From a bacterium (GTDB lineage Bacteria > Patescibacteriota > Minisyncoccia > JAHIHE01 > JAGLIN01): a stretch of 43,948 bases of DNA. How positions within the stretch are numbered: the stretch's first letter is position 1; every line of letters begins with the position of its first letter. The stretch is taken from NCBI GenBank assembly GCA_030638825.1, contig DAOWDU010000036.1:1-43948 (forward strand). Reading direction: 5' to 3'. A program made the position numbers and the translations under genes. Below the pieces are notes generated by a model. The model was not told where the DNA came from and ran no database searches. It worked only from the letters and a program-made list of their open reading frames with translations. Shown one piece after another: positions 20,537 through 43,280 of the stretch.

Positions 20537-20565
20537 ATTTATTAATTTTTTAACTTAAAATAAAT

Positions 20566-21171: not shown

Positions 21172-21228
21172 AAGTCATTTTGAAATCTAAAAAATGACAA
21201 AAATAAGTTAATTTTTTAGAAATAGATT

Positions 21229-22248: not shown

Positions 22249-22844
22249 TTAAAAAGATTGAGGAATATAAAAATGGGTGGGATCATGTTAGAAATATAGT
22301 AGATCGGAAAAAAGGGGTTGAAGTTGGGAGCGAGGCATATCAGCAAGATGGGATGTCATTTGGGAGAGTTGCGGATTGTTCAATAAACGGAGTTGCGGAC
22401 ACAGGCAAGAAAATTTCAAAAGAACTTTATCAAGAATTAAAAAATGATTATCAGCCGAAGCGGGACGATATTTTATTTACCAAAGACGGAACAATCGGTT
22501 TAAGTTATGTTGTCAAAGAAGAATTTGAAGTAATTTTAAGCGGAGCATTTTTGAGATTAAGCTTAAAAGATAAATATCAAACATTTGAAAAAGAATGCTT
22601 GTCTCTCATTTTCAATTCTATTATTTCCAAAATGCAAGTTGAAAAATTATCAGGCGGAGCAATAATCGCCCACTTGAAACCATCTGATTTTGAAAAATTC
22701 AAAATTCCGCTTATCAATCTAAAAATTCAAAAACAGATTGCGGAGAAAATACGAGAAAGTCATAAACTAAGAAAAGAAAGCAAGGAGCTTTTGGAAGAAG
22801 CGAAAAAGAGAGTTGAGAAAGAGATTGAGAAAGAGGGAAAATAA
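22233..22844 (+). CDS. hsdS: Half-size HsdS-like specificity subunit
   Basis: 203 residues with one target-recognition domain: GWDHVRNIVDRKKGVEVGSE, YQPKRDDILFTKDGTIGLSY, SGGAIIAHLKPSDFEKFKIPL, then the coiled-coil spacer IQKQIAEKIRESHKLRKESKE. Full HsdS proteins have two such domains; half-size forms dimerise and recognise symmetrical sites. The start is uncertain: TTG 22233 overlaps the previous gene, and no better ATG precedes the conserved region. It ends the operon. Coding style resembles the fused subunit at 18509, with which it presumably works. Confidence 0.8.
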   Translation: MYSKIIKKIEEYKNGWDHVRNIVDRKKGVEVGSEAYQQDGMSFGRVADCSINGVADTGKKISKELYQELKNDYQPKRDDILFTKDGTIGLSYVVKEEFEVILSGAFLRLSLKDKYQTFEKECLSLIFNSIISKMQVEKLSGGAIIAHLKPSDFEKFKIPLINLKIQKQIAEKIRESHKLRKESKELLEEAKKRVEKEIEKEGK

Positions 22845-25517: not shown

Positions 25518-27011
25518 ATGCAAAACCGTACTCTCTATTTCGGCGACAATTTAGAAATCTTACGGAAGAAAATCAAAGACGAGAGTTTTGATTTGATTTA
25601 TCTTGACCCGCCGTTTAATTCTAATCGAAATTACAATGTGCTTTTTAAAGAAGGCATCCAAGATAGCCCAGCGCAAATTAAAGCGTTTGATGATTCTTGG
25701 CATTGGACAAGAGAATCAAAAGAAGCGTTTGATTATTTGGTGACTAAAACCAATGAAGACATTTCCAGTTTAATGCAAGCGTTAGAAAAGATGGTTGGGC
25801 ATAATGATATGTTAGCGTATTTGACGATGATGACAGTTCGTCTGATTGAACTGCACCGGGTTTTGAAAAAGACAGGAAGTTTATATCTACATTGCGACCC
25901 AACCGCTAGCCATTATTTGAAAATTGTTTTGGATGCGATTTTTTGGAAGAAGAATTTTAGAAATGAGATTATTTGGTGTTATCGCGGAGCTGGATATCCT
26001 AAAAAAGATTTTGGTAAAAGGCATGACATAATATTCAGATATTCAAAAACAGATAATTATATTTTTAACCTTGATGATGTCAGAGAAGAATATGCTGAAG
26101 CGACAAAAGAGAGATTTAAATATCATATTGGAAACATAAGAAAAGGAAAAGATTTTGGAGCTCAAGAATTAAATCCTTTGGGAAAACAGCCTGATGATTG
26201 GTGGCAGATACAACCATTAGCTCCATCATCCAAAGAGCGGCTTGGCTATCCAACTCAAAAACCCGAAGCGCTATTAGAGAGAATAATCAAAGCAAGTTCA
26301 AAAGAAGGGGATTGGATTTTAGATCCCTTTTGCGGGTGCGGAACGACTGTCGCTGTTTCAGAAAAATTGAAAAGAAATTGGGTGGGGATTGATGTTACTT
26401 CTCTGGCGATAAATTTAATAAAATACAGAATTAAAAATCAGTTTGGTTTAGGAAATAAACAAATTTTTGTTGACGGACTGCCGACTGATTTAGCGGGAGC
26501 GAAAGAATTATTTGAAAAAGATCCTTTTGAGTTTGAATATTGGGCATCAGATTTGGTAAACGCTATTCCGCCACATGGCAAAAGCAAAGACAATATGCGA
26601 GGAGCGGATAAAGGCGTTGACGGAGTTATTAACATTCTCAGAAATATAGTTAACGGCAACAAAGAATACGGCAAAATAATTGTTCAAATCAAAGGCGGCA
26701 AAGTGCAAAGAAATCAAATAGCAACTCTGAAAGGCGATGTTGACAGAGAAAAAGCGGAAGCGGGAGTTTTCATAACCTTAGAAAAACCGACCAAGCCAAT
26801 GAAAAGCGAAGCGGTTGACGCGGGAACTTTTACTATTCCAATAACGAACAAAGTTGAATTTCCTAAAATCCAAATTTTAACTATTGAAGAATTATTGCGA
26901 GGGAAGAAGCCAGATTTGCCACGATATGGTTTAGTGAAGAATTATTACAAAGAAGCGAAAGCGAGTGAAATGGGAGGAGGCGGTTTAGTGCGGGAGGGGT
27001 TGGGGCTGTAA
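25518..27011 (+). CDS. Beta-class DNA methyltransferase fused to Mrr-like nuclease domain
   Basis: 497 residues. The motif order is DPPF (Asp30) first and DPFCGCGTT (from Asp269) late, the beta-class order of N4-cytosine or N6-adenine methyltransferases (type III Mod-like). Residues about 355-460 (GADKGVDGVINILRN ... GKIIVQIKGGKV) carry an Asp and a QxK motif of Mrr-type PD-(D/E)XK nucleases. A self-contained enzyme that modifies and cuts is therefore likely (type IIG-like). It is separate from the 18509 system and needs no specificity subunit. Target sequence cannot be deduced. Confidence 0.85.
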   Translation: MQNRTLYFGDNLEILRKKIKDESFDLIYLDPPFNSNRNYNVLFKEGIQDSPAQIKAFDDSWHWTRESKEAFDYLVTKTNEDISSLMQALEKMVGHNDMLAYLTMMTVRLIELHRVLKKTGSLYLHCDPTASHYLKIVLDAIFWKKNFRNEIIWCYRGAGYPKKDFGKRHDIIFRYSKTDNYIFNLDDVREEYAEATKERFKYHIGNIRKGKDFGAQELNPLGKQPDDWWQIQPLAPSSKERLGYPTQKPEALLERIIKASSKEGDWILDPFCGCGTTVAVSEKLKRNWVGIDVTSLAINLIKYRIKNQFGLGNKQIFVDGLPTDLAGAKELFEKDPFEFEYWASDLVNAIPPHGKSKDNMRGADKGVDGVINILRNIVNGNKEYGKIIVQIKGGKVQRNQIATLKGDVDREKAEAGVFITLEKPTKPMKSEAVDAGTFTIPITNKVEFPKIQILTIEELLRGKKPDLPRYGLVKNYYKEAKASEMGGGGLVREGLGL

Positions 27012-30669: not shown

Positions 30670-31809
30670 ATGCAAGAATATCAGACAATCATTATCGGCG
30701 CGGGACCAGCGGGGTTGATTGCGGGGAGACACTTGAAAAATGCCTTGATTTTGGATAAGAAAAAAGAGATTGGAAAACCTGTTCAGTGCGGGGAGGGGGT
30801 TAGTGAAAACGCTTTGGAGTTGCAGGGGATTGAGCCAGATGATTCCTGGATATCTTGCAAGATTCATAAGATGGAAAGGATTACGCCGAGCGGGAAAGTG
30901 ATTGGCAAATTTCATGAGGAGGCAATGGGGTATGTTATTAAGCGGGAGAAGTTCGAGAAATATTTAACGCAAGATCTTAGGGCGGAGATTAAATTAAATA
31001 CAAAAGTAATAGATTTAAAATTTGAAAATAATCTTTGGGAAGTAATTATAGAAGGTGGGGAGAAATTTAAATCAAAATATATTATCGGCGCAGACGGTCC
31101 AGCTTCAGTCGTGAGAAGAAAAGTTTTTCCAGAAAGTCAGGATAAAATAAAATTTGTCCCCGCTGTTCAATATTTGATAAAAACAGAAAAAGAGCTGGAT
31201 GACAAAACAATAAAAATTTATCTTGATAATGAAAAATACAATCATGGCTATGCCTGGATTTTTCCAAAGTCAAAAAATACCGCCAATGTTGGAATTGGCA
31301 GTATGGGAAATTTTGCGGAAGAATTAAATAAGTTTTTAGAAGAAATAATCAAAAAGAATTATGGCGATTACGAAATTATAGAAAATAGAAGCGGAACTAT
31401 TCCAGTCGCTAATATTTCCCAATGCAAACTTTACAAAAACGAAGCATTCTTAGTCGGCGACGCAGCTGGTCTAGCCGATCCAATTTTCAAGGGTGGAATA
31501 AGCCAAGCGATGATGTCTGGAAAAATAGCGGGGGAATGTATTTTAGAAAACAATCCTGATTCTTACGAAGCGAAAATCAAAACAATGCCTTTTGCGGATG
31601 AAAAATTAATTAAAGCGAGTGAGATATTCTATGGTTTTGATAATGAAGTTTTGGATGAGTTGGGGAATGTTTTTGAAAATAAAGAATTGTCTTATGCCCA
31701 AACTTTTCGTGGCGCTTTGAAAGTTTTATCAAGGTCAGCATTTTTGAAAAATATTAAAAAGTTTTTTATGCTAGTTTTTGCTTGGAAGAATAGTAAAGAT
31801 TGTATGTGA
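30670..31809 (+). CDS. Geranylgeranyl reductase family flavoprotein
   Basis: FAD enzyme that saturates double bases of prenyl chains using a reductant such as NAD(P)H or ferredoxin. 379 residues with IIIGAGPAGLIAGR (FAD loop), KPVQCGEGVS (family Cys motif), GADGPASVVRR, NHGYAWIFPKSKNTANVGIGS, and VGDAAGLADPIFKGGISQAMMSGKIAGE. These fit the bacterial/archaeal GGR family that acts on lipids, GGPP or quinone side chains. It is monocistronic, ending at a CAGTATG-type terminator, with the diterpene cyclase next. Substrates could be GGPP, its cyclised product, or a prenylated lipid. Confidence 0.88.
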   Translation: MQEYQTIIIGAGPAGLIAGRHLKNALILDKKKEIGKPVQCGEGVSENALELQGIEPDDSWISCKIHKMERITPSGKVIGKFHEEAMGYVIKREKFEKYLTQDLRAEIKLNTKVIDLKFENNLWEVIIEGGEKFKSKYIIGADGPASVVRRKVFPESQDKIKFVPAVQYLIKTEKELDDKTIKIYLDNEKYNHGYAWIFPKSKNTANVGIGSMGNFAEELNKFLEEIIKKNYGDYEIIENRSGTIPVANISQCKLYKNEAFLVGDAAGLADPIFKGGISQAMMSGKIAGECILENNPDSYEAKIKTMPFADEKLIKASEIFYGFDNEVLDELGNVFENKELSYAQTFRGALKVLSRSAFLKNIKKFFMLVFAWKNSKDCM

Positions 31810-31846
31810 GGTTTTACTAAATTAAACTAAAATGAATTTTAACAAA

Positions 31847-31880
31847 ACAGTATGGTAATATGTATTATCATACTGTTTTA
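31847..31880 (+). terminator. CAGTATG-type terminator after GGR
   Basis: Arms 31847-31860 and 31863-31876 with a two-base loop. The sequence differs from the 4451 copy by only one base. The cyclase promoter begins 35 bases on. Confidence 0.85.
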
Positions 31881-31911
31881 TATTTCATTTAGATGTCCGA
31901 TTTCAATTTTT

Positions 31912-31939
31912 TTGTCGCTTTCAAGTTTTGTGGTATAAT
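31912..31939 (+). promoter_or_regulatory. Promoter of the diterpene cyclase gene
   Basis: TTGTCG (31912-31917), a 16-base spacer ending GTGG, and TATAAT (31934-31939). It differs at only two spacer positions from the UbiA promoter at 35919-35946. Confidence 0.7.
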
Positions 31940-31975
31940 AAAAATAATAAAAGTATTAATGACAAATAATAAATT

Positions 31976-33466
31976 ATGAATCACAAGCGTAATCTTAGAA
32001 AAGAGGCGAAAGGGATATTGGACAATCTAGGTCAAGGCGGGATTTCGCCGTCGGTTTATGATACGGCTTGGGTGGCGAGAATTCCAGATAGTAAAAATCC
32101 GAAGAAGCCGATGTTTCCGCGGGCTTTGAATTGGATAGTCAGTAATCAGTATCCGAATGGCAGTTGGGGAGGAAAAATAGAATATTATCACGATCGGATA
32201 ATTTGCGCGCTTTCGGCGATTGTCGCTTTGAATAAATATAATGATAGCAAGAAATATCAGAGGGAGATTGAAAAGGGCGAGAAGTATATAAATAGCAATA
32301 TTAAAAATTTAAAAAAAGACAATTATCTTACGGTTAGTTTTGAGTTATTATTTCCCGCTTTATTAAAAGAGGCAAAAGGGAAAAAGCTTAATTTATTATA
32401 TAATGATAGCGTTGTTAAAAAATATTTGAAAATAAAAAATGAGAAATTAAAACTTCTTCCAGAAAATTTGATCTATAAAAAATTAACTACTCTTTCGCAT
32501 TCTGTCGAGTTTTTGGGTAATGATCTAAATAAAAAAGAAATTATTAAAGTTCAAAATAGCAATGGCTCTTTTTTAAATTCCCCATCGGCGACAGTTTATG
32601 TTTATCTGAAAACGGGTGATCAAAAATCGCTTGAATATATAAAAGAAATAATGAAAAAATTCAACGATGCCGCGCCAGTCAATTACCCGATAGATATTTT
32701 TGAAATTTGCTGGGTTCTTGATTCTCTTTATAGCATGGAATTAGAAAGTTCATTTACAAAAGAAATAAAAAGAAAAATAATTTTTTTGAAAAAACATTGG
32801 GGTTATCGGGGAATGGGATGGTCTACCTGCATTCCTCTTGCGGATCTTGATGATACGGCGATCGCCCTTGGATTGTTCAGAAAGAACGGGATGAAAATTT
32901 CTCCAGATGTTTTTGAAAATTTTATAACAGACGGAAAAATAAAATGTTTTGATGGCGAGTTCAATCCTTCACCAAGCCATATCATTCATCTTTATGACGC
33001 TCTGAAGGAATGTGAGGAAAGCGATTTTGTGGAGGATCTGAAAAAGTCGTGTCTAAATCATATTACAAAAATGCGAAACGCAAAAGGATACTGGTATGAT
33101 AAATGGCACATCTCGCCTTATTATACAACCTCGCATGCTATCTTTGCTTTTGGCGTTGAAAATGAAATTTCAAAAAAGGCGATTGATTGGATTATAAAAA
33201 CGCAAAGAAGGGATGGCTCCTGGGGGTTTTTTGAGAAAGGCACTTGCGAGGAAACCGCTTATTGTTTGCAAGTGTTGTTGCTTTGCTATGAAAAAAATAA
33301 AAAAATAAAAAAGCAATCTTTAGAAAAAGCGGCTGGTTATTTGAATGATAATTTTGAAAGTTATGATTATCCGGAGATGTGGATAGAAAAATGTTTATAC
33401 ACGCCGTTTGATATTGTGAGGTTTTATATAATTTTAAGTTTGATAAAATACGATGAAGTGAATTAG
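31976..33466 (+). CDS. Class II diterpene cyclase (copalyl-diphosphate-synthase-like)
   Basis: Protonation-initiated terpene cyclase, expected to fold geranylgeranyl diphosphate into a bicyclic diphosphate. The 496 residues match bacterial two-domain diterpene cyclases of about 500. Family marks are intact: SPSVYDTAWVARIP at 24-37, WIVSNQYPNGSWG, NGSFLNSPSATVYVY, the catalytic acid motif DLDD (Asp290, Asp292, Asp293) in LADLDDTAIALG, FDGEFNPSPSHIIHLYDAL, DKWHISPYYTTSHA, TQRRDGSWGFFEKG (409-422) and WIEKCLYTPFDIVR. No class I DDxxD domain is fused, so the diphosphate is kept for a second enzyme. Squalene cyclases are longer and lack YDTAW. The exact product cannot be read from sequence. Confidence 0.92.
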   Translation: MNHKRNLRKEAKGILDNLGQGGISPSVYDTAWVARIPDSKNPKKPMFPRALNWIVSNQYPNGSWGGKIEYYHDRIICALSAIVALNKYNDSKKYQREIEKGEKYINSNIKNLKKDNYLTVSFELLFPALLKEAKGKKLNLLYNDSVVKKYLKIKNEKLKLLPENLIYKKLTTLSHSVEFLGNDLNKKEIIKVQNSNGSFLNSPSATVYVYLKTGDQKSLEYIKEIMKKFNDAAPVNYPIDIFEICWVLDSLYSMELESSFTKEIKRKIIFLKKHWGYRGMGWSTCIPLADLDDTAIALGLFRKNGMKISPDVFENFITDGKIKCFDGEFNPSPSHIIHLYDALKECEESDFVEDLKKSCLNHITKMRNAKGYWYDKWHISPYYTTSHAIFAFGVENEISKKAIDWIIKTQRRDGSWGFFEKGTCEETAYCLQVLLLCYEKNKKIKKQSLEKAAGYLNDNFESYDYPEMWIEKCLYTPFDIVRFYIILSLIKYDEVN

Positions 33467-33565
33467 AGTGGATGTTCTCTGGAATTTTTAAGATTTTCTA
33501 TTTTATTAATTTTATTATTTTTGCTGAAAATCTATTTGTATTTTTCCAATTGTAGGAAATAATAT

Positions 33566-33594
33566 TTGACAAAATTTTAACAAACTTCTAAAAT
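33566..33594 (+). promoter_or_regulatory. Strong promoter with a long leader for the GNAT gene
   Basis: Consensus TTGACA (33566-33571), a 17-base spacer and TAAAAT (33589-33594). The transcript would start near 33601, about 180 bases before the ATG at 33780. Confidence 0.7.
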
Positions 33595-33650
33595 ACAACT
33601 AAGATATGAAAAATAAAAAATATTAGTTCTTTGAAAAGTAGTAATTGTTT

Positions 33651-33698
33651 GGAGCAACAGTTTAGTGATAAAGGTTTTTATTATTAAATTGTTGTTCC
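33651..33698 (+). promoter_or_regulatory. Structured leader element of the GNAT gene
   Basis: GGAGCAACAGTTTA (33651-33664) pairs with TAAATTGTTGTTCC (33685-33698) over 14 bases with two G-T pairs and a 20-base loop. The downstream leader has AGGGTTTATCTC and the purine-rich GGGCAGGAGAATGAG before the start. It may be a riboswitch or protein-binding leader. No ligand family is recognised. The rest of the 33467-33779 gap holds only this leader and its promoter. Confidence 0.45.
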
Positions 33699-33779
33699 GA
33701 ATGATTTATTTTTAGGGTTTATCTCTATTTTTCGGGCGACAAAAACAAAAAAGTCAATCGGGCAGGAGAATGAGAAAAT

Positions 33780-34580
33780 ATGAGTTTATATGGCAATAGG
33801 AATGTTTCAAATTTTGGAACTAGAAAAGTGAATTTGAGTGCAGAGGAAGAAGCGAGCGGAAATGTAGGAAAAGCCTTGACTCTTTCTACGAAGAGAGGAA
33901 GCGAATTAGCTTGGCGTTTCAACAAAGACAATCTGAGTTGGCTTAAGCGAAGAGAACTTTTTCAGGAAATTTATGGTCTTTGCAGAGAAAGTTTTTGTGT
34001 AAAGGACAGTTCTGAATTCAGGAATGATGTAAAACATCACATTTTTGATACGCATGAGATTTGCATTGTGCCATTCGGAAATGTTCCTGACGGTCTTAGT
34101 CCAACATGTTTTAAGACTGACAAGATTGCGGCATTTGCTTCCTATAACTTTTTGCATTATTGGACAAATAGAGAATTTATTTATTTTTCTGGAATAGTGG
34201 TTGATACTTCTTTGCAGGGACTCAATTATGGTTCTCTTCTGATGCAAGAAATTATGAAGAGTAATGGAATAAAATTGGCAGTACTAAGAACACAAAGTCC
34301 GGTAATGTACAACAGCTTTGCGAAAGTTTGCAAAGTCTTTCCTTCTTTTGATGGTAGAGAAATACCAGGAGAAATAAAAAACATAGGAAAGTATGTTGCC
34401 AGGAATATTCTTCGTATGTCGGATTATGATGAAGGAAAAATGATAGGAAAAGAAACTTACGGCAAGTCCTTATATGGAAAAGAGCCTATTCTTAATAATT
34501 CAGAATTGAATAGAATCTTTAAACAAAAAATAAATGCAAGCAGAGGAGATTCAATTATCGTGGTTGGAGAACTAAAATAA
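33780..34580 (+). CDS. GNAT-fold acetyltransferase-like protein
   Basis: 266 residues. The core SGIVVDTSLQGLNYGSLLMQEIMKSNG is the acetyl-CoA-binding strand-loop-helix of GNAT enzymes, followed by LAVLRTQSPVMYNSFAKVC, the family's final strand and helix. Residues 1-60 are an unusual polar lead-in and the 60 C-terminal residues are unplaced. Substrate is unknown. A GGAG ribosome binding site lies at a suitable distance, unlike neighbouring genes. The unusually long, structured leader suggests regulation. It sits between terpenoid genes but has its own promoter and terminator, so a pathway role is unsupported. Confidence 0.6.
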   Translation: MSLYGNRNVSNFGTRKVNLSAEEEASGNVGKALTLSTKRGSELAWRFNKDNLSWLKRRELFQEIYGLCRESFCVKDSSEFRNDVKHHIFDTHEICIVPFGNVPDGLSPTCFKTDKIAAFASYNFLHYWTNREFIYFSGIVVDTSLQGLNYGSLLMQEIMKSNGIKLAVLRTQSPVMYNSFAKVCKVFPSFDGREIPGEIKNIGKYVARNILRMSDYDEGKMIGKETYGKSLYGKEPILNNSELNRIFKQKINASRGDSIIVVGELK

Positions 34581-34606
34581 ACCAACCAGCAAATAAAATA
34601 AATTTC

Positions 34607-34640
34607 TGCTTATCTTTTCCTGAAGATAGGCAATTTTTTT
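34607..34640 (+). terminator. Terminator after the GNAT gene
   Basis: TGCTTATCTT (34607-34616) pairs with AAGATAGGCA (34623-34632), one G-T pair, then seven T. Confidence 0.8.
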
Positions 34641-34652
34641 AACTCATATTTT

Positions 34653-35831
34653 ATGAATAATAACAAGACAAAATATTTATTAGAAAAATTAATTAATTTC
34701 AATACTGAAAATTTTGATGATAAGCCGAGTGGATATACTTTGGATTTTTTGAGATTTATTCGGAAATATTTGAAAGAAAGTGGAATAAAATCAAAAATAC
34801 ATAAATATGATCTTAACAAAAAATACGATGGCAAAATAGAAAAAATAAAAAACAGAGGAATTTTGTTGACTGAAATTAATGATTCTAAAAAACCAATAAT
34901 TCTTTTAGAGGGACATACGGATACTGTTCCAATTGAAAGTAAAAATATTTCAAAAGCTATTTGTTCTGTAAAGGGAAATATTATAAAAGGCAGAGGAGCA
35001 GTTGATATGAAGGGTAGCATTGTTTCAATGATTTTAGCAATTCAGGAATTAAATAAAAATAAAAACTTAAAATATCAACCCGTTCTATTACTTACTTCTG
35101 ATGAGGAAGCCAACAATTTTGCTGGCATTAAACATTTTCTTAAGCTACAGAAGAAACACAAATATAATATTAAATTTGCAGTTTGCGGAGAGCCGACAAA
35201 CTTTGAAATTAAAATAAATTTTTACGGAGCGTTGTATATGATTATTGAATGTTTTGGAAAATCAGGACATGGCGCTAATAAATCAGAGAATGAAAACGCT
35301 ATTGAAAATATCGTTCCTTTCCTTAACGACTTATTAAAATATCAAAAAGAAATTTCTAAAATTCGTCATCCTCAATTAGGTTATTCAGTTATGAATATTG
35401 GAACAATAAGGGGAGGAAGAAAAGTAAATCAAGTTCCTTCTTCGTGCGTTATTGAATTTGCCGTCAGAACAGTGAAGAAAAATAATATTTATTTAAATTT
35501 ATTTAATGATATTGTAGAGAATAAAAAAATTCTACATAAAACAACGCAAGTATTTTCTTACGATCCTATTTGCGTTTCAAGTAATAATAAATTTGTCAGC
35601 GAACTAAAAAAATCAGTGTTAAAATCCGGAAAGAAATCTCAGTTTAATATTTCAAAAGAATTTTCTGAAGCTACTCTTCTTAATAAAGCTGGACTTGAAA
35701 CTGTTATGTTCGGTCCTGGTAATTCTGTTTATTCTCATTCGTCTAACGAAAAAATAAATATAAAAGATGTTTTGTTGACCAAAGAAATATTAGTTGATTT
35801 TCTTTCCCTTTCTTCACATTCTATACCATAA
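34653..35831 (+). CDS. M20 family zinc peptidase/deacylase
   Basis: 392 residues of the ArgE/DapE/CPG2 family, metal-dependent enzymes that hydrolyse amide bonds of small N-acylated amino acids or dipeptides. Zinc motifs are EGHTDTVP (His88, Asp90), GRGAVDMKGS, TSDEEANN, CGEPTNFEI, and a late His in NSVYSHSSNEKI. The dimerisation domain contains KSGHGANKSENENAIENI. Nothing fixes the substrate (acetylornithine, succinyl-diaminopimelate, dipeptides and others are possible). It starts 12 bases after the GNAT terminator, and no separate promoter is clear. Confidence 0.85.
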   Translation: MNNNKTKYLLEKLINFNTENFDDKPSGYTLDFLRFIRKYLKESGIKSKIHKYDLNKKYDGKIEKIKNRGILLTEINDSKKPIILLEGHTDTVPIESKNISKAICSVKGNIIKGRGAVDMKGSIVSMILAIQELNKNKNLKYQPVLLLTSDEEANNFAGIKHFLKLQKKHKYNIKFAVCGEPTNFEIKINFYGALYMIIECFGKSGHGANKSENENAIENIVPFLNDLLKYQKEISKIRHPQLGYSVMNIGTIRGGRKVNQVPSSCVIEFAVRTVKKNNIYLNLFNDIVENKKILHKTTQVFSYDPICVSSNNKFVSELKKSVLKSGKKSQFNISKEFSEATLLNKAGLETVMFGPGNSVYSHSSNEKINIKDVLLTKEILVDFLSLSSHSIP

Positions 35832-35878
35832 ACAAAAAATGGAGAATGTGAGTTTTTAATTTTTTAATTAAAATTATA

Positions 35879-35920
35879 AACCAGTATGATAAATATTAGC
35901 ATACTGGTTTTAATTTTTTT
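35879..35920 (+). terminator. CAGTATG-type terminator before UbiA
   Basis: AACCAGTATG (35879-35888) pairs with CATACTGGTT (35901-35910), then TTAATTTTTTT. Its T-run overlaps the -35 of the UbiA promoter. Confidence 0.8.
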
Positions 35921-35946
35921 GTCGCTTTTAAATTTTGTGGTATAAT
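35919..35946 (+). promoter_or_regulatory. Promoter of ubiA-histidine kinase operon
   Basis: TTGTCG (35919-35924), a 16-base spacer ending GTGG, and TATAAT (35941-35946). It is almost identical to the cyclase promoter at 31912-31939. Confidence 0.7.
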
Positions 35947-35982
35947 AAAATTAGTCAGGTTAATTTAATTAAGAGATAAAAA

Positions 35983-36840
35983 ATGAAAGTTGAAGAGATT
36001 TTACAATTTGTTTGGGAAGAGTTTGTTTATGGTGGACACTTGCTTTCATTGGGAGCGGTCAGTATTGTTTTTACTGCAGCTGTTTTATTGGAAGTTAAAA
36101 TCACTTGGGATTTTTTAGCAATTATTTATTTATGGACACGATCTGTTTATTTATTTTATCAGTTTGACGATTTCAAGAGTGATATTTTAACAAATTTTCA
36201 AAGAACCAAACACATTAAAAAATATGTCAAGTATATTCCTTTAATTATTTTTCTTTCCAATTTGATTATTATTGCAATTGCAATCTATTTTAATAAAGTG
36301 CATGCTCTAATTTTTGGTTTTTTACTATTTCTTTTTGGTTTGTGTTATAGTCTTTTTCTTAAAAAAATTACGAAAAATATAATTGCTTTTAAAAATTTCT
36401 GTGCTTCTTTAATGGGTGTATCGTTATTATTATTTCTTATTGTTTATTATCCTCCTTCTTTTTTCAATATGTCGTTGTTTCTCCTTATGATTTTTGTTTT
36501 TTTGAGGTGGTTTGTTAATACAAGTTTTCTTGATTTAAAAGATGTTGAAAATGATAAAAAAGAAAAATTGTTAACATTACCAATTGTTTTCAAGAAAGAG
36601 AAAATGTTCAATACTTTAAATTTAATCAATGTTCTTTCTGTAGCCCCTATATTTTTTGGTTTTTATCTAAAATTATTTCCTTTATTTTCCATGACTCTTC
36701 TTTTTATTATTCCATATTCTTTTTATTATTTAAATAAAATAAAAACAGAAAAAACAAATTCTTTTTTAAATTATGTCTTTGTTGACGGAGAATTTATTTT
36801 GTGGTCGGTTTTTATTTTATTTGGTAAGTTTTTGTTATGA
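35983..36840 (+). CDS. UbiA-family prenyltransferase
   Basis: Integral membrane enzyme moving a prenyl group from a diphosphate to an acceptor ring, glycerol phosphate or sugar. 285 residues with eight or nine hydrophobic segments. The first aspartate motif is FDDFKSD (Asp62, Asp63, Asp67) and the second DLKDVENDKK (Asp184, Asp187, Asp191), which bind the Mg-diphosphate; TLPIVF after it is typical. The first motif normally begins with Asn (NDxxD) and has Asp here. The promoter matches that of the diterpene cyclase, so its donor could be the cyclised diterpenyl or GGPP. The TGA overlaps the kinase ATG (ATGA). Confidence 0.85.
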   Translation: MKVEEILQFVWEEFVYGGHLLSLGAVSIVFTAAVLLEVKITWDFLAIIYLWTRSVYLFYQFDDFKSDILTNFQRTKHIKKYVKYIPLIIFLSNLIIIAIAIYFNKVHALIFGFLLFLFGLCYSLFLKKITKNIIAFKNFCASLMGVSLLLFLIVYYPPSFFNMSLFLLMIFVFLRWFVNTSFLDLKDVENDKKEKLLTLPIVFKKEKMFNTLNLINVLSVAPIFFGFYLKLFPLFSMTLLFIIPYSFYYLNKIKTEKTNSFLNYVFVDGEFILWSVFILFGKFLL

Positions 36841-38864
36841 TAAAATTAAGAAACAAAATTTGTAGTTATCTAAAATTATTGATATGTAGAGAAAAATATC
36901 AGAAATTAAATGAAATACAACAAATAGAATATATTGAAAAATTAGAAAACGAGAAAGAAAAGATTATTGCTCTACAGGAAACAATTAAAATTGTATCGGG
37001 AACACTAGATATTAAAGAAGTACTAGATATTATTTTAGATAAAATAGTAGCACAGCTTGGTTTTAAAACACCTTCTGTGTTTTTGGTGGATAAAAGCAGT
37101 AATTCTCTATGTGTGGGAAAGTTGTATGGAACATCAATCATTATGAATATTTTAGAGAAAGGGTTAAAAAAACCAATTTTGGATGCAAAACTTTCTTTAA
37201 CTTCTAAAGAAAACCTTATGGTAAAGGCGGTGATTACTGGCAAGATGTTTTATACTAACGATCTTTATGATTTTTCAATTCGGTTGGTAAGCAAATCTAC
37301 TGCATATTTAGCACAAAAAATGTATAGCAAAGTATACGGAATGAAGAGAATGGTTGCTATACCACTATCTGCAAAAGGAGAAATATTAGGAGTATTAACG
37401 GTTAGTTTGTCGGAAGATAGAGATTTGAATAAAAAAGAAGAAGAATTGTTAGCATCTTTCACTAGTCAAGCCGCAATTGCTATTTATAATGCTCAGCAAT
37501 TTGAACAAATCCAAACCCAAGTTAAACAACTTGAAGAAAAAACGGAAGATATGGAATCGCTTTTGGATATTTCGGAAGTCGCGGGGAGTTCTTTGAAAAC
37601 TAAAAATGTTGCGCAAAGAATTGTAGATAGCATCCCAGAAAATCTCAGGCATCTAGGATATGAGGGAGGCATCTTGGTTCTCTATAATAAAAGAGAAGGG
37701 TATGTTTATACTTACGCTTTAACAGAATCAAAGATTGTAAAAAAAGCGAAAAAATTATTAAACAAATCATTGAGAGAGCATTTAGAATATATTGATCAAG
37801 CAGATAATTTTGTAATCAAAACCATCAAAACAAAGAAAATGCAAGTTGGCAGCAAGCTGGAAGAATTTATCGCTCCGACCGTTAGTAAAAAAGTATGCGG
37901 GCTTATTCAGAAATTAGTTGGCGCGAAATCCTTTATTTCCATTCCCTTGCTTTCCGGAGGAAGAATTAAAGGAACGATTGTTTTTGTTGGCGTGAAGCCA
38001 AAGAAAAAAATAGTCCAAAGAGACAAAGACATTCTTTTTGGTTTTTCCTCTCATATCGGCGCGGCGATTGAAAATGCTCAACTCTATGAACAAACAGAGA
38101 AACAAATAAAAGCGCTGTCAATATTGAATGAAAATCTGAAGATGGCGAATATCAAGATGAAAGAACTTATGGAAATAAAGAATGAGTTTTTGCATATTAC
38201 TTCTCACCAGCTAAGAACTCCGCTGACGACAATTAGGGGAATGATTTCTATGTGGTACAGCGGAGACTTTGACGATTTATCAGAGAAAGAAAAGAGAAAA
38301 ATGTTGAAGAGAATATATATAAGCTCTGAAAGATTAAATAACATTACAAACGATATGCTGGATTCTTTGGAACTGGAAGGCGGGTTTATGAAGTTTCAAT
38401 TCAAGCAGATGTCTTTAAGGGAAATTATAAAAGAAACAGTAGATATTATGAAACCGAATTTTAACAAGAAAAATCTTTATCTAGAACTTAATGATAACAT
38501 AGATATACCAAAAGTTGAAGTGGAGCCGAATTATATCAGGCAGGTGTTTGTGAATACGATTGATAACGCCTGCAAATACACAAAAAAAGGCGGTGTTGAA
38601 GTAAACATTAAAAAAATTGGGAAATATGTGGAAGTCGCTATAAAAGATACGGGTATTGGCGTGAGCGAAAGCGATCAAAAAAAGATTTTCCTCAAATTTA
38701 CAAGAGGAAAAAGAGCCTCCGCCGAAAACGCTTCGGGAAGCGGGTTGGGATTATTTATCGCCAAGAAAATTGTTGACGCGCATAACGGGAAAATTGAATT
38801 TATTAGCAAAGGAGCCGGGAAAGGTTCGGTGGTGAAAGTGAGGTTGCTGGTGAAGCAGGGATAA
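36837..38864 (+). CDS. Double-GAF sensor histidine kinase
   Basis: 675 residues. Two GAF domains lie at about 40-220 and 235-425, each ending in IAIYNAQ or AAIENAQ helices. The dimerisation box is FLHITSHQLRTPLTT with phosphorylated His457. The ATPase end has NTIDNACKYTKKGG (N box), KDTGIGVSESD (G1) and GSGLGLFIAKKIV (G2). There is no transmembrane segment, so it senses an intracellular small molecule or redox cue. No response regulator is in the window. The ATG overlaps the UbiA stop, so the two proteins are made in coupled amounts, an unusual pairing. Confidence 0.92.
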   Translation: MIKLRNKICSYLKLLICREKYQKLNEIQQIEYIEKLENEKEKIIALQETIKIVSGTLDIKEVLDIILDKIVAQLGFKTPSVFLVDKSSNSLCVGKLYGTSIIMNILEKGLKKPILDAKLSLTSKENLMVKAVITGKMFYTNDLYDFSIRLVSKSTAYLAQKMYSKVYGMKRMVAIPLSAKGEILGVLTVSLSEDRDLNKKEEELLASFTSQAAIAIYNAQQFEQIQTQVKQLEEKTEDMESLLDISEVAGSSLKTKNVAQRIVDSIPENLRHLGYEGGILVLYNKREGYVYTYALTESKIVKKAKKLLNKSLREHLEYIDQADNFVIKTIKTKKMQVGSKLEEFIAPTVSKKVCGLIQKLVGAKSFISIPLLSGGRIKGTIVFVGVKPKKKIVQRDKDILFGFSSHIGAAIENAQLYEQTEKQIKALSILNENLKMANIKMKELMEIKNEFLHITSHQLRTPLTTIRGMISMWYSGDFDDLSEKEKRKMLKRIYISSERLNNITNDMLDSLELEGGFMKFQFKQMSLREIIKETVDIMKPNFNKKNLYLELNDNIDIPKVEVEPNYIRQVFVNTIDNACKYTKKGGVEVNIKKIGKYVEVAIKDTGIGVSESDQKKIFLKFTRGKRASAENASGSGLGLFIAKKIVDAHNGKIEFISKGAGKGSVVKVRLLVKQG

Positions 38865-38889
38865 AAATTGTTTTGTTCAATATAATTTT

Positions 38890-38917
38890 TTGGTTGTTTT
38901 TAAAAGTGTGGTAGAAT
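38890..38917 (+). promoter_or_regulatory. Promoter of the coiled-coil gene
   Basis: TTGGTT (38890-38895), a 16-base spacer ending GTGG, and TAGAAT (38912-38917). It has the same 16-base geometry as the cyclase and UbiA promoters. Confidence 0.55.
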
Positions 38918-38946
38918 GTAAAAAGGAAATAAATTAATTAAAAAAC

Positions 38947-39309
38947 ATGGAAACAAAAAAAGAAATAACAATTAATGAATTAGCTAACAAAGTAGATAAA
39001 TTGTCTGGAACAGTAAATGAACTATTTGGAACAGTAGACGAGTTGTCTGGAACGGTAGATAAATTAGCTGGGATAACGCAACAGGAGTTTGTGGCGGCGC
39101 AAAAAAGGATTGAAGCAATAGACAATAAGTTTGATGAAAAATTTAATCAGGTTTTAACTGGTCAGGATCATATTTTAAAAAGGTTGGAAGATTTAGAGAC
39201 GGATAACACAGCAGGCGCAACGGTTTCTCGGCGGCATGATGATGAATTAGAGAATTATGAAGAGAGGATTGTTGTTGCGGAGGGGAAGTTGGGGGTTGGG
39301 GCGGTTTAG
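38947..39309 (+). CDS. Small coiled-coil protein with heptad repeats
   Basis: 120 residues. Three seven-residue units in a row, LSGTVNE, LFGTVDE and LSGTVDK, give an almost perfect heptad, followed by QQEFVAAQKRIEAIDNKFDEKFNQVL and HDDELENYEERIVVAEGKL. No signal or membrane segment is present. Proteins of this kind are common in Patescibacteria and usually unannotated. It probably forms oligomers. The tail ending KLGVGAV is Gly-rich. Confidence 0.7.
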   Translation: METKKEITINELANKVDKLSGTVNELFGTVDELSGTVDKLAGITQQEFVAAQKRIEAIDNKFDEKFNQVLTGQDHILKRLEDLETDNTAGATVSRRHDDELENYEERIVVAEGKLGVGAV

Positions 39310-39319
39310 GATTTTGGGG

Positions 39320-39348
39320 TTGACAAGTTTTTTATTTTTGGTTATTAT
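39320..39348 (+). promoter_or_regulatory. Promoter of the 148-aa membrane protein gene
   Basis: TTGACA (39320-39325), 17 bases, TATTAT (39343-39348). Confidence 0.65.
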
Positions 39349-39385
39349 GTTAATAGTTTTAGAAGTATTAAAGAGGTGAACTTAA

Positions 39386-39832
39386 ATGAAAATTAGTGAT
39401 AACGGTTCTTTAGAATGTATGTTTGGAGCGTTTGTTATTATAGCGTTTCTTGCGTTTGGAAAATTCCTGCTTATATCTTTTGCGGGAATAGGAAGTCTTT
39501 TTTTGAGTTTGATGATAATTTTATTTGTTACATCGCTGGTAGTGATGTTTTTAATAGGATATTTATCAAAGTTCAAGAAAGTTGAAACTTCTGTTATGTG
39601 GGAACGGTTTTTGAGTGCAACAATCTTTGTTGTGTTTGCAAGTCTTTTCGGGTTTGTGTTGTTTATCCCGGCAGTCTATTATTTAGCAGGATGGTGGATT
39701 TATCACACAATTGGAACAGTCGTTGTAATTTCATTAATCCTTGCCAAAATAATGGTAAGATTAGTAGAAGGGAAAACTCCTCATCTTTTTGGGGAAAACA
39801 AAAAGCAAGAAAAAATAACTCTTGCTGGATAG
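39386..39832 (+). CDS. Small membrane protein of unknown function (148 aa)
   Basis: Starts at ATG 39386 with an AGAGGTGA ribosome binding site eight bases upstream. Four hydrophobic segments are visible (about residues 12-30, 33-57, 74-96 and 100-122), then a basic tail, LVEGKTPHLFGENKKQEK. No family is recognised. It is monocistronic, with a consensus promoter and a terminator whose stem includes the stop codon. The next gene shares this layout, suggesting related expression control. Confidence 0.6.
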   Translation: MKISDNGSLECMFGAFVIIAFLAFGKFLLISFAGIGSLFLSLMIILFVTSLVVMFLIGYLSKFKKVETSVMWERFLSATIFVVFASLFGFVLFIPAVYYLAGWWIYHTIGTVVVISLILAKIMVRLVEGKTPHLFGENKKQEKITLAG

Positions 39833-39859
39833 AGGATTAAATCTCTATCCTATTTTTTT
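39827..39859 (+). terminator. Terminator overlapping the stop codon of the 148-aa gene
   Basis: GGATAGAG (39827-39834) pairs with CTCTATCC (39843-39850). The TAG stop is inside the left arm. A T-run follows. Confidence 0.8.
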
Positions 39860-39871
39860 ATAAAATTTCTC

Positions 39872-39900
39872 TTGACAAACATGGACTTTTGTACTATTTT
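39872..39900 (+). promoter_or_regulatory. Promoter of the 133-aa membrane protein gene
   Basis: TTGACA (39872-39877), 17 bases, TATTTT (39895-39900). Confidence 0.6.
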
Positions 39901-39938
39901 ATAAATACAAATCAAAATAAAATTGGAGGTAGTAGTAG

Positions 39939-40340
39939 GTGAATGAACTTGAAATAATACTTTATGCGGCAGTCGCATTTGGAGCAGTACTTGCAGTAGT
40001 AGCGCTCAAGCAAAAAAGTCTTGAGGGCAAAATAACAATTTTGGGTGTAGCATTTATTGTGGAGTGTATATTGATGCCTTATGCATTGTATCTGCGCATT
40101 CCAGTATTCAGAGGACTTTTAAGCGGGTTATTTGATTTTATATCGACAGCCAGTCCAGAAGTTTCTGGAGCAAGAATGTTAACAGTTTTTTGCTTATATC
40201 TTGTTCCAGTAGCAATTATGTCAGTGTGTATGATAAGTAGTAAGGAGGTGGCAGAATACATAATGACATTGCGGGGAAAAATAACAGCAAGCAAAATTAA
40301 CGAAAACAGAAAGCGCTTAATAGAAGCGCCTGCAGGATAG
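39939..40340 (+). CDS. Small membrane protein of unknown function (133 aa)
   Basis: GTG start at 39939, supported by GGAGGT nine bases upstream. Three hydrophobic segments (about residues 6-22, 32-55 and 82-98) precede a basic amphipathic tail (EVAEYIMTLRGKITASKINE). No family is recognised. Like the previous gene it has its own TTGACA promoter, a strong ribosome binding site and a terminator that includes the stop codon. The protein ends in Ala-Gly, as do the 148-aa protein and the secreted peptide at 3274. Confidence 0.55.
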   Translation: MNELEIILYAAVAFGAVLAVVALKQKSLEGKITILGVAFIVECILMPYALYLRIPVFRGLLSGLFDFISTASPEVSGARMLTVFCLYLVPVAIMSVCMISSKEVAEYIMTLRGKITASKINENRKRLIEAPAG

Positions 40341-40367
40341 ACAATAAGTTTATATCCTGCTTTTTTT
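40332..40367 (+). terminator. Terminator overlapping the stop codon of the 133-aa gene
   Basis: GCAGGATA (40332-40339) pairs with TATCCTGC (40353-40360), followed by seven T. The TAG lies at the end of the left arm. Confidence 0.8.
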
Positions 40368-40384
40368 ATTTCTAAATTTTTTAC

Positions 40385-40413
40385 TTTACTTGTAATTAAA
40401 AACTCTGTATAAT
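40385..40413 (+). promoter_or_regulatory. Promoter of the Cys-rich pilin-domain gene
   Basis: TTTACT (40385-40390), a 17-base spacer and TATAAT (40408-40413). Confidence 0.6.
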
Positions 40414-40442
40414 ATAAACAGTTTTAGAATTAAGATAAAAAA

Positions 40443-42176
40443 ATGAAAACACAAAAATTATGTTTATTGGGAATCATGACAATTATAATCCTCCCTGTAT
40501 TTTTAGTAGTGGGAATTAATAAGACTAGCGCTGCCGCTTATCTTGGATGCGCTGAAAGACCGCTTGATGACGATTGTGGAATAGTTGTAACGGATCAAAG
40601 TTTGCTCTTTTGTGAATCTACTGAATGGTGTATGGCGATTCCGCTTGATGTATCTGCGTTAACGGGAGTGTATTCTCGCGCTGTGAATTCTTGTGATACA
40701 GGAAATAGGCATTGTAGAGAAGATAGTTGTAGCGGAATAGTAGCCAATGATGGTGACTCGTGTGTTGTAGTTGGAGGAAAAGGAGGATTTTTTGGAGGTT
40801 GTGATGAGAACGATAAAGAATATGGAACTTGGTCGTCTGGCAGATGTATTGCTTGTTCTGGAATTAATACAGAAAATGGAATTTGGGGAGATGCTATTGG
40901 AATTTATGCGGACATAGCAAAAGGAGGCGACTCAATGTGTGAAGCAAATGGCTGTGGCGCAAGTCCTGAATGCGACGAAAAAATGCCCACATGGGTTGAT
41001 CCAGGAGGTACAGGTTCTTGTGATGATCATTGTATTTGGACAGCAGCCGCAGTTTGTAATAATGATGGTACTTGTGCTGGAGCTGAAACGACCACAAATT
41101 GTCCGAATGATTGTTGTGATAAAGGTTGCGGAGCTGGATGTACAAACATCGTTGATTGTATGACTATTGAACCAGATTGCGCGGGAGCTTGCGTTGATCC
41201 GGCCTGTGTAACCGATACCGATTGTGGGTATTGGGTTTGTGATAGCGGCGCAGGTTATATAGCCGAAGACTGTGCTGCGGGAGGATTTGAAGATTGTAGT
41301 AGTATAGATGGAAATAATTGCGGTGGCGGGAAAGTTTGGAGTTGCGCTGGAAGTTGTAATATGATGTGCGATCCCCAGTGGTTTCCAGGAGGATGTTTCC
41401 CAGCTCCTCCGGCTCCTCCAACTCCACCATGTGTAGATGAATATGATGCTTGTGATTGTACTTGTGTGGTTGCTGGCTGTAATAATAATGGAGTGAAAGA
41501 TAACGGTGAAACAGGGGTAGATTGTGGAGGAGGAGGATGTCCCGCTTGTGCTGGTCCAGTTTGTGTTCCTGATGGATGCAATGGCAACTGTCCTGCTGGT
41601 TGCGGAGGAGGCGATGACCCAGATTGCGCAGGAGCTTGTTTGGATCCACTTTGCTTAACAGATATGGATTGTTGTACTAACACTCCTTGTGTTGCTCCTC
41701 AAGTATGTGATGAAACTACAGGAAATTGTGTAAATTGTATAACAGATGACGATTGCGTAGGAACTGATGTGTGTAATGGCGGAGTTTGTGTTGCTTGCAG
41801 TGGCGAAGGAGAAGATCCTGGAAGCGCTGATTTGTGTTGTGTTGGACTTAGCTATTTAGACATTGATGGCGATGGAAAATTCTTTTGCACTTCCGTTTGC
41901 GATCCGAACGCTTGGTTTTTTTGCAATCCATTAAGAGGATCAGTTGAAACGATTGTTCAAGCGGGGGAAACTATGTTAGGATATATTTTAGGACTTATCG
42001 GATCAATCGCATTGCTGTTTATTATTATAGCAGGAATGATGTATATGACTTCCGCTGGAAACGAAGAAAGAATTTCTTCCTCAAAGAAAATTTTAACGGG
42101 GGCTGTGATTGGATTAATGATTGCGCTTCTTGCCTATGGCTTGCTCCATGTTATTATGACGGTGCTTAATATGTAA
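40443..42176 (+). CDS. Cys-rich surface protein with C-terminal T4SS-pilin-like domain
   Basis: 577 residues with a signal peptide (LGIMTIIILPVFLVVGI) ending near SAAA. The ectodomain, residues about 35-490, holds roughly 65 cysteines in spaced CxxC and DCxG-type groups, with Pro-rich PAPPAPPTPP at about 320, and resembles disulfide-rich adhesion modules. The last 90 residues carry two helices (GYILGLIGSIALLFIIIAGM and ILTGAVIGLMIALLAYGLL) and the loop TSAGNEERISSSKK, the signature of the small TrbC/VirB2-like pilins common in CPR. Usually that domain is alone or has a short lead. Here a very large Cys-rich region is fused in front. It may decorate a pilus or anchor at the cell surface. Confidence 0.8.
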   Translation: MKTQKLCLLGIMTIIILPVFLVVGINKTSAAAYLGCAERPLDDDCGIVVTDQSLLFCESTEWCMAIPLDVSALTGVYSRAVNSCDTGNRHCREDSCSGIVANDGDSCVVVGGKGGFFGGCDENDKEYGTWSSGRCIACSGINTENGIWGDAIGIYADIAKGGDSMCEANGCGASPECDEKMPTWVDPGGTGSCDDHCIWTAAAVCNNDGTCAGAETTTNCPNDCCDKGCGAGCTNIVDCMTIEPDCAGACVDPACVTDTDCGYWVCDSGAGYIAEDCAAGGFEDCSSIDGNNCGGGKVWSCAGSCNMMCDPQWFPGGCFPAPPAPPTPPCVDEYDACDCTCVVAGCNNNGVKDNGETGVDCGGGGCPACAGPVCVPDGCNGNCPAGCGGGDDPDCAGACLDPLCLTDMDCCTNTPCVAPQVCDETTGNCVNCITDDDCVGTDVCNGGVCVACSGEGEDPGSADLCCVGLSYLDIDGDGKFFCTSVCDPNAWFFCNPLRGSVETIVQAGETMLGYILGLIGSIALLFIIIAGMMYMTSAGNEERISSSKKILTGAVIGLMIALLAYGLLHVIMTVLNM

Positions 42177-42212
42177 ATAAAATAACACAACTTTAATAAA
42201 CTAAATTAAATT

Positions 42213-43280
42213 ATGCCGATAGAAGATCACCTTGCTAGCTTGAAAAATAAAGTGGATGAAGAATTAAAAATGTTCTTTGATAATAAAATTAGGCAAATTA
42301 AAAGTCAGGAAAAACCTGATGAACTGTTAGAAATGACTGAAAATTTAAGAGAGTTTATTTTGAGATCCGGAAAGAGAATCCGTCCAATTTTATTTTATTG
42401 CGGATATATTATTGCGGGAGGAAGAGACAAAGAAAAAATTTTAAAAGCCGCGATTTCAATTGAGCTGATCCATTCTTTTCTTTTAATCCATGACGATATT
42501 ATTGATCAAGATAACTTTAGGCACGGCGGATTATCAATGCATTGCAGTTATAAAAATAAATATAAAAATAAAAATAAAAATTCCAAACATTTTGAAATTT
42601 CAATGGCAATAATTGTTGGGGATTTGGCTTGTAATTTTGGCTATGAAATTTTATCCGAAGCAGATTTTTCTTCAGACTTGAAAATTAAGACGATTAGGAA
42701 GATGAACCAAATTATTTCAAATACAGCTGCCGGAGAAGCTGCCGATGTGGAGTTAAGCGTGAATTCTAGTTTTGACGCTAATAAAATTGTTGAAATGCAA
42801 AAATATAAAACTGCTAAATATACTATTGAAGGACCGCTTCATTTAGGAGCGGTTTTGGCTGGAGCTGACAGCAAATTTTTAGAATCTATCAGCAAGTTTG
42901 CCATACCTCTCGGCATCGCTTTTCAAATTCAAGATGATATCATCGGCATCTTTGGAGATGAAAAGAAAATAGGAAAACCAATAGGATCAGACATTGAAGA
43001 GGGAAAGAAAACGCTTTTGATCACCAAGACTATTGAACAGGCAGATAATGAGCAAAAAGAAATATTGATTAATCTGCTGGGTAGCGCAAAAATAAATTTA
43101 AAAGAAATAGAAAAAGTAAGAGAGATAATAATAAAAACTGGATCTCTGGAACATTCTCAGAAAATTGCTGGCGAATTAATCAAAACTTCCAAGAGGCGTC
43201 TTGAAGAAATGAAAATTTTATCTCAACATCAAGGATTTTTAAATGATTTAGCCGATTTCATTGTAGGAAGAGAACATTAA
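42213..43280 (+). CDS. Trans-polyprenyl diphosphate synthase, GGPP-type
   Basis: Builds C15-C20 or longer prenyl diphosphates from IPP and an allylic primer. 355 residues. The first Asp-rich motif is HDDIID (Asp94, Asp95, Asp98), the second QDDIIGIFGD (Asp241, Asp242), with GKRIRPILFY near the start for IPP binding and GSDIEEGKKTLL after the second motif. Phe89 lies five residues before the first motif, as in archaeal GGPP synthases where an aromatic residue there limits chain length; this makes C20 likely but not certain. It would supply the diterpene cyclase, reductase and UbiA. It has its own terminator and no visible ribosome binding site. Confidence 0.92.
   Translation: MPIEDHLASLKNKVDEELKMFFDNKIRQIKSQEKPDELLEMTENLREFILRSGKRIRPILFYCGYIIAGGRDKEKILKAAISIELIHSFLLIHDDIIDQDNFRHGGLSMHCSYKNKYKNKNKNSKHFEISMAIIVGDLACNFGYEILSEADFSSDLKIKTIRKMNQIISNTAAGEAADVELSVNSSFDANKIVEMQKYKTAKYTIEGPLHLGAVLAGADSKFLESISKFAIPLGIAFQIQDDIIGIFGDEKKIGKPIGSDIEEGKKTLLITKTIEQADNEQKEILINLLGSAKINLKEIEKVREIIIKTGSLEHSQKIAGELIKTSKRRLEEMKILSQHQGFLNDLADFIVGREH

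Follow-up and report, generated by a model that had tools for sequence, protein, structure and literature searches.

What does a bacterium of the Patescibacteria, in a family whose sampled genomes span 0.5–1.5 Mb, do with an enzyme that cyclises diterpenes? The question is raised by contig DAOWDU010000036.1 of assembly GCA_030638825.1, analysed over its whole length of 43,948 nt on the forward strand (the window; all positions are those of this stretch). An earlier note on this DNA had read in it a class II diterpene cyclase (P0001), a geranylgeranyl-reductase-family flavoprotein (P0002), a UbiA prenyltransferase (P0003) and a prenyl synthase of the geranylgeranyl diphosphate (GGPP) type (P0004). 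All four open reading frames (ORFs) were found where it had placed them, and their families were confirmed by profiles and motifs, beyond chance matches. A histidine kinase gene at 36837-38864, absent from that list, proved central. We propose, with a probability of roughly 0.5, that the locus couples a terpenoid-making enzyme to a cognate sensor histidine kinase, the product here being a cyclic diterpenoid.

The locus was compared across 14 genomes of the family, including that of the window, whose genus contains two congeners, G234 and G241; motif and profile calls were judged against Pfam and NCBIfam cut-offs. The family conserves an arrangement of terpene-enzyme slot, histidine kinase and prenyl synthase in which the slot gene is swapped among relatives. 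The order is rpsL-rpsG, then further along slot-histidine kinase-prenyl synthase-mraZ-rsmH-ftsL-ftsI. The slot gene is located immediately 5' of the kinase and prenyl synthase genes in nine other family genomes, while in G234 slot and kinase are divergent with 28 bp between them. The kinase adjoins the prenyl synthase in ten family members, small genes intervening in the window and G234. In the window the kinase, P0010 (36837..38864, + strand), is by domain profiles a soluble GAF-GAF-HisKA-HATPase sensor histidine kinase, and its start overlaps the stop codon of the UbiA gene by 4 nt. The same 4-nt overlap between slot and kinase is observed in G190, G226, G115, G093 and G257, in G024, from another family of the same order, and in L050, a further Patescibacteria contig of another lineage, which suggests translational coupling of the two genes.

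The content of the slot varies. In the window it consists of reductase, cyclase, GNAT-like acyltransferase, M20 deacylase and UbiA, and in five relatives (G190, G218, G070, G115 and G257) it is a UbiA gene, preceded by a reductase in G190 and G115. The slot of congener G234 encodes a class I terpene synthase (P0009; PF03936/PF19086, 37.6 and 38.7 bits, above cut-off) with the motifs DDLMD and NDISTHDID, corresponding to DDxxD and NSE. A 330-aa DDxxD/NSE protein takes this position in G226, G093, G134 and congener G241, the last copy being cut by the contig end; both motifs are present in all three full-length proteins, compared with 0.4–2.3% of shuffled sequences. G249 carries a 292-aa DDLLD protein and G024 a 317-aa DDFFD protein. 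In L050 the kinase is of the GAF type, and its gene is overlapped by that of a DUF2600 protein (large terpene synthase). Directly upstream of the DUF2600 gene (L050:9947-10201) is a cyclase relic of 41 aa, 56% identical to P0001 and followed by a stop, a remnant of an exchange of slot enzymes. As a separate observation, the prenyl synthase has seemingly been exchanged too (L089, L085, L090), that of G226 being 72% identical to those of G190 and G115 and 52–56% to those of its own genus.

The sensor is swapped together with the slot enzyme, whereas the catalytic domain is not. Within a single genus, G093 (330-aa slot) and G257 (UbiA slot) are 94% identical in the C-terminal part of the kinase and 41% in the seven-transmembrane (7TM) sensor, while the N-terminal 7TM sensors of G093 and G226, which share a slot type, are 74% identical. 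In a label permutation over the nine genomes having a 7TM sensor, with three slot types and 504 arrangements, mean sensor identity was 45.2% with the same slot type versus 38.2% with a different one, a value reached by only one of the 504 arrangements, the observed one. Identical tests of the linker (312/504), kinase (310/504) and prenyl synthase (276/504) were null. The trees correspond: G093 groups with G257 in the kinase tree (support 98/97) and with G226 in the sensor tree (100/100), where G257 joins UbiA genomes of other genera (92/93). The window and congener G234, both having GAF and not 7TM sensors, follow the pattern qualitatively: they differ in slot enzyme and are 85% identical in the kinase and 34% in the sensor.

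The slot enzyme peculiar to the window, P0001 (31976..33466, + strand, 496 aa), is an intact class II diterpene cyclase of the beta-gamma type, assigned by Pfam, PDB, AlphaFold, Foldseek and motifs. Sequence, fold and PDB match thus upheld the original reading of intact DLDD and YDTAW motifs in the ORF starting at 31976: YDTAW occupies residues 28-32 and DLDD, the DxDD acid motif of the beta domain, residues 290-293 (codons 32843-32854). PF01397 (54 bits) and PF13243 (46 bits) each exceed their cut-offs. Against the PDB, P0001 matches Rv3377c of Mycobacterium tuberculosis (6vpt) with 243 bits over residues 19-495 at 33% identity and Arabidopsis copalyl diphosphate synthase (CPS), an ent-copalyl diphosphate (ent-CPP) synthase (3pya), with 254 bits over residues 8-379. 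An AlphaFold2 model, built from an alignment with 31 relatives, reached a predicted local distance difference test (pLDDT) of 93.2 and a predicted template modelling (TM) score (pTM) of 0.93; Foldseek returned 6vpt as its top match (E 9e-29, TM 0.86), in a beta-gamma double alpha-barrel fold, with plant CPS (AtCPS), abietadiene synthase, PtmT2 and Tpn2 among the others. Activity of P0001 on GGPP is predicted and very likely. Published active-site rules for class II cyclases associate the LHS and PNV motifs, a His-Asn dyad, with ent-CPP synthases (PMC11795633). P0001 departs from the phytohormone-type pattern, in that SHS keeps H175 (codon at 32498) but PVN replaces PNV. Tyr479, the catalytic base of Rv3377c, aligns with Y475 (codon at 33398), a Tyr which is near-invariant across Anaerolineae cyclases and alone is not diagnostic of a halimadienyl diphosphate synthase. 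Since His and Tyr are kept and PNV reads PVN, the prediction goes no further than a bicyclic C20 diphosphate.

Scans of 384 genomes of the class and 380 of the phylum each detected the cyclase in one genome, in both cases this one, and it is absent from both congeners and the 11 further members of the 14-genome set. The prenyl synthase is present in 12 of the 14. This combination, fixed beforehand as speaking against it, removes the conserved, dedicated diterpenoid pathway that had been proposed for this group. Contamination or misassembly is excluded by the flanking genes, as the reductase (65–78% identity) and UbiA (36–54%) both have same-locus counterparts in relatives. Viral contigs searched with P0001 and with alignment A5 gave no match.

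Two copies of a terminator-promoter module are found in the window. In copy 1, a terminator-like stem-loop of 16 bp follows the reductase gene (31838..31885, + strand; fold -17 kcal/mol, z -5.9) and a promoter, TTGTCG-N16-TATAAT with TG preceding the second hexamer, lies 37 bp ahead of the cyclase start (31901..31946, + strand). In copy 2 the stem-loop (35868..35920, + strand; RNA fold -16.4 kcal/mol, z -6.4) accompanies a promoter likewise 37 bp ahead of the UbiA start (35908..35953, + strand). The 46-nt promoter regions are 91% identical, and a 37-nt core, with up to 3 mismatches allowed, has two matches in the 44-kb window, those of cyclase and UbiA, with 0 expected. The module copies point to joint expression of the two genes, as predicted from these motifs, and also mark the ends of an inserted cyclase-GNAT-M20 block. 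The palindrome ahead of both promoters was considered as a fixed-spacing operator; it had no fixed-spacing match and is therefore read as a terminator-like stem-loop. An Rfam search of positions 24-44 kb gave no match. The route from GGPP through a bicyclic diphosphate to UbiA, as first proposed, is chemically coherent and gains from the shared module. UbiA, for its part, does not need the cyclase, because five other UbiA genes of the family occur without one and the slot is elsewhere class I terpene synthase-like.

Combined, these observations are consistent with the following scheme. The prenyl synthase would make GGPP, probably from imported isopentenyl and dimethylallyl diphosphate (IPP/DMAPP), and the cyclase would protonate it to a bicyclic diterpenyl diphosphate. 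The co-regulated UbiA enzyme may transfer the diterpenyl group to an acceptor or ionise it in the manner of a terpene synthase; UbiA is probably, with modest confidence, the step after the cyclase. The product may receive its final form from the reductase, acyltransferase and deacylase. It would be sensed by the neighbouring GAF-type kinase, either for feedback or because it is a signal that cells exchange and the kinase is its receptor. Sensing of the terpenoid product or a precursor by the kinase has an even chance of being correct, and use of the terpenoid as a signal between cells is a tentative extension. What we infer from the arrangement is the identity of substrate and product, the place of UbiA after the cyclase, and the sensing of the product.

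Several points weigh against a sensed terpenoid. The ligand of the kinase is a predicted one, and no response regulator adjoins P0010 in the window. The co-swap sample is small, nine genomes and three slot types, and the window kinase, having no membrane sensor, falls outside that test. Sensor and slot are neighbours, so that a single tract of recombination could move the two together even if no function connected them. The first motif of P0003 is YxxxDxxxD and not the usual NxxxDxxxD, the Asn being missing; most relatives have NxxxExxxD. The 330-, 292- and 317-aa slot proteins are putative terpene synthases by their motifs, to which the 330-aa proteins add weak Pfam matches below cut-off (E 0.015 and 0.058); the latter had no match in PDB, and hhalign found none to class I synthases, P0011, P0012 or UbiA. 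Finally, IspG and HMG-CoA reductase were each found in 0 of the 14 family genomes in searches whose positive controls worked. Because both are missing while a trans-prenyl synthase is kept, IPP/DMAPP are presumably imported.

The closest known principle is the ComQ-ComX-ComP-ComA quorum-sensing system of Bacillus, in which an isoprenoid enzyme gene lies beside a histidine kinase gene (PMC4008528), and by analogy the locus may work somewhat like it. In both, the kinase joins a conserved catalytic part to an N-terminal sensor that is polytopic and highly variable, and enzyme and sensor vary together among relatives, which in Bacillus defines pherotypes. Unlike ComQXPA, the family locus has no peptide gene between slot enzyme and kinase, its slot enzymes are terpene cyclases/synthases or UbiA with no PF00348 match, no response regulator adjoins, and the window kinase is soluble. 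As ComX gene, PF00348 slot enzyme and adjacent response regulator are all lacking, the locus is not a ComQXPA member. It is a speculative but possible reading that this is a terpenoid pherotype system, swappable enzymes making a cyclic terpenoid signal which the co-inherited kinase reads, so that mismatched strains would not understand each other. On this doubtful reading the users of the system would be ultra-small-genomed bacteria that apparently do not make their own IPP, and Anaerolineae would have a parallel version with an Rv3377c/Rv3378c-like pair, described next.

When GTDB genomes were scanned with an alignment that combined P0001, Rv3377c and two plant domains, 51 loci were obtained, most of them in metagenome-assembled genomes (MAGs) of Anaerolineae. 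A same-strand histidine kinase gene directly follows the cyclase in 32 of 38 loci with room downstream, nearly all Anaerolineae, and an Rv3378c-like gene stands beside the cyclase in 36 of 47 loci with room upstream (tblastn); its Rv3378c-like identity was established through PDB 3wqk (206 bits). Thus, in two distant lineages the gene for a diterpene-forming enzyme shares an operon with that for a sensor kinase, the Anaerolineae case being an independent parallel; no published account of this pairing was found in the open-access literature. The Rv3377c-Rv3378c locus, which makes 1-tuberculosinyladenosine, resembles the window in that its class II cyclase has the fold of P0001 (33% identity, TM 0.86, Y479 = Y475) and is paired with an enzyme which uses the diphosphate that the cyclase makes. 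It differs in that UbiA stands in the role of Rv3378c here and P0001 also keeps the plant-like His, H175. The Rv3378c-like gene had 0 matches in the 14 family genomes, in a search made with no positive control genome and with a query which works in Anaerolineae (tblastn). Orthologues of Rv3377c/Rv3378c outside mycobacteria were reported as not found, and plasmids of plant-associated bacteria were proposed as their source (PMC11476799). In our trees Rv3377c nests within an Anaerolineales clade (97/93). An Rv3377c-like cyclase beside an Rv3378c-like gene is common in Anaerolineae (L003-L051, ~40 loci) and occurs also in Legionella erythra (L048:9923-11525), where the cyclase is split across two overlapping frames, possibly broken or frameshifted, with a convergent Rv3378c-like gene adjoining.

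P0001 itself and the plant terpene synthase (TPS) class II domain are placed as sister groups, with support of 100/98 using two plant rows and 99/94 when repeated on residues 8-345 with four. Approximately unbiased (AU) tests reject its pairing with L002 (p 0.004), L042 (0.027), L003 (0.024) and L034 (0.001), and its placement within plants (p 1e-6). No other non-plant row exceeds 33% identity to AtCPS, whose identity to P0001 is 38%. In this sample, P0001 is the closest non-plant relative of the plant class II domain, in trees where the plant rows are fragments taken from printed PDB alignments and the composition of P0001 is odd. It is 38–39% identical to CPS and miltiradiene synthase and retains DxDD and the His of the LHS motif; unlike the plant enzymes it has no alpha domain, and with PVN for PNV half of the ent-CPP dyad is kept. 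Work on bacterial bifunctional diterpene cyclase/synthases considers bacterial class II diterpene cyclases as a source of the plant family (PMC11469919). The bifunctional enzymes are fused to an alpha domain, while P0001 is a stand-alone beta-gamma protein; none of the five reported is from its group, and they were left out of the trees. Taken jointly with a terpenoid pherotype system, it is conceivable, though less likely than not, that among known stand-alone proteins the P0001 lineage comes closest to the class II domain ancestral to the plant TPS family. The cyclase bears on the open question of the origin of that family. A further class II diterpene cyclase, 37% identical to P0001, is encoded in a Theionarchaea archaeon MAG (L042:9953-11422), and a HAD phosphatase gene follows it.

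Among other explanations, the one surviving best, itself unlikely, is a dedicated pathway for a diterpenyl lipid, quinone or sugar, comprising GGPP, cyclase, transfer by UbiA and chain reduction, with the kinase an unrelated neighbour. The enzyme families and the promoter shared by cyclase and UbiA agree with it, and the UbiA profile leans toward geranylgeranyl-transferring enzymes, namely digeranylgeranylglyceryl phosphate (DGGGP) and chlorophyll synthases. However, congeners and other family members have terpene synthase-like genes in the place of UbiA, the cyclase is unique within family and class, and both the 4-nt overlaps and the co-swapping would be unexplained. Geranylgeranylglyceryl phosphate (GGGP) synthase, PF01884, was also found in 0 of 14 family genomes, compared with 7 of 14 control genomes. 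An archaeal-type ether-lipid pathway is therefore unsupported, although P0003 and P0002 belong to the superfamilies of the archaeal DGGGP synthase and geranylgeranyl reductase and P0002 keeps their Cys and YxWxFP. Separately, a myo-inositol-1-phosphate synthase gene (1933-3042; PF01658, 107 bits) allows a possible link to inositol lipids.

Unlikely too is linkage alone, in which the slot is a gene-exchange hot spot and takes with it the 5' half of the adjacent kinase gene, because homologous recombination ends in the conserved kinase part, the purposes of enzyme and kinase being unrelated. Adjacency of slot and sensor would permit this, as would the upstream anchor rpsL/rpsG, 94–99% identical within genus g4. 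Set against it, every identifiable slot gene is an isoprenoid enzyme and not random cargo, Anaerolineae, L050 and G024 show the same enzyme-kinase adjacency although their kinases are different ones, and UbiA-type sensors remain similar across genera. That the cyclase arrived recently by horizontal transfer and rides along with no steady function, as its absence from both congeners, the lack of the block in all relatives and the flanking duplicated modules might suggest, is very unlikely given an intact ORF with complete catalytic motifs, a confident fold, host-like composition (GC 0.34, GC at third codon positions (GC3) 0.33) and its own promoter.

The remaining genes of the window locus can be placed around the coupled enzyme and kinase. 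P0002 (30670..31809, + strand) scores 194 bits with TIGR02032 (cut-off 159), has the motifs CGEG (C40) and YAWIFP (Y194), and has its same-locus orthologues in G241, G234 and G190. The GNAT-like acyltransferase P0006 (33780..34580, + strand; PF00583 barely above cut-off) and the M20 deacylase P0005 of ArgE/DapE type (34653..35831, + strand; PF01546, with TIGR01910 under cut-off) have no counterpart at the relatives' loci and arrived together with the cyclase. P0003 (35983..36840, + strand; PF01040, 44 bits, cut-off 34) fills the slot beside the kinase; its first motif is YQFDDFKSD (59-67) and its second Asp motif, DLKDVEND (184-191), is intact. P0004 (42213..43280, + strand) is a short-chain trans-prenyl diphosphate synthase (PF00348, 187 bits) that matches PDB GGPP synthases and reaches no NCBIfam equivalog cut-off. 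By the chain-length rules for trans-prenyl synthases, the residue pattern before DDxxD, with Phe at -5, fits GGPP; P0004 has DDIID at 94 with Phe at -5 and Leu at -4, and its product is probably GGPP. Between kinase and prenyl synthase a gene of high GC (0.434) and low GC3 (0.256) encodes a 577-aa protein whose C-terminal domain resembles type IV secretion system (T4SS) pilins (40443..42176, + strand; PF18895 slightly below cut-off); it is found in congener G234 and not at the loci of other genera, and is probably a passenger. A CrtI-like enzyme claimed at 4501 could not be maintained: ORF 4501-5850 scores 55 bits against a cut-off of 238, stays below every cut-off for CrtI and CrtD, and was rejected as a pathway member, being also 25 kb distant. 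Elsewhere, a Zeta-toxin family kinase (8517-9233; PF06414, 135 bits) has a 94% identical counterpart in congener G234, where its position is rearranged. A restriction-modification region (18509-22844 and 25518-27011), with an N6_Mtase-HSDR_N fusion, a Methylase_S specificity gene and an N6_N4 methylase fused to an Mrr-type nuclease domain, is not at the relatives' loci examined.

If the coupling of terpenoid enzyme and kinase is correct, a new principle would be added to that of the isoprenylated peptide ComX, namely a terpenoid small molecule that signals through its own sensor kinase, and it would open a first way into the study of communication in a reduced bacterial lineage. For Anaerolineae, the same neighbourhood predicts that a kinase likewise senses their diterpenoids, which are relatives of the tuberculosinyl pathway. 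Within the family, the enzyme and sensor variants form natural matched pairs, which makes the proposal directly testable.

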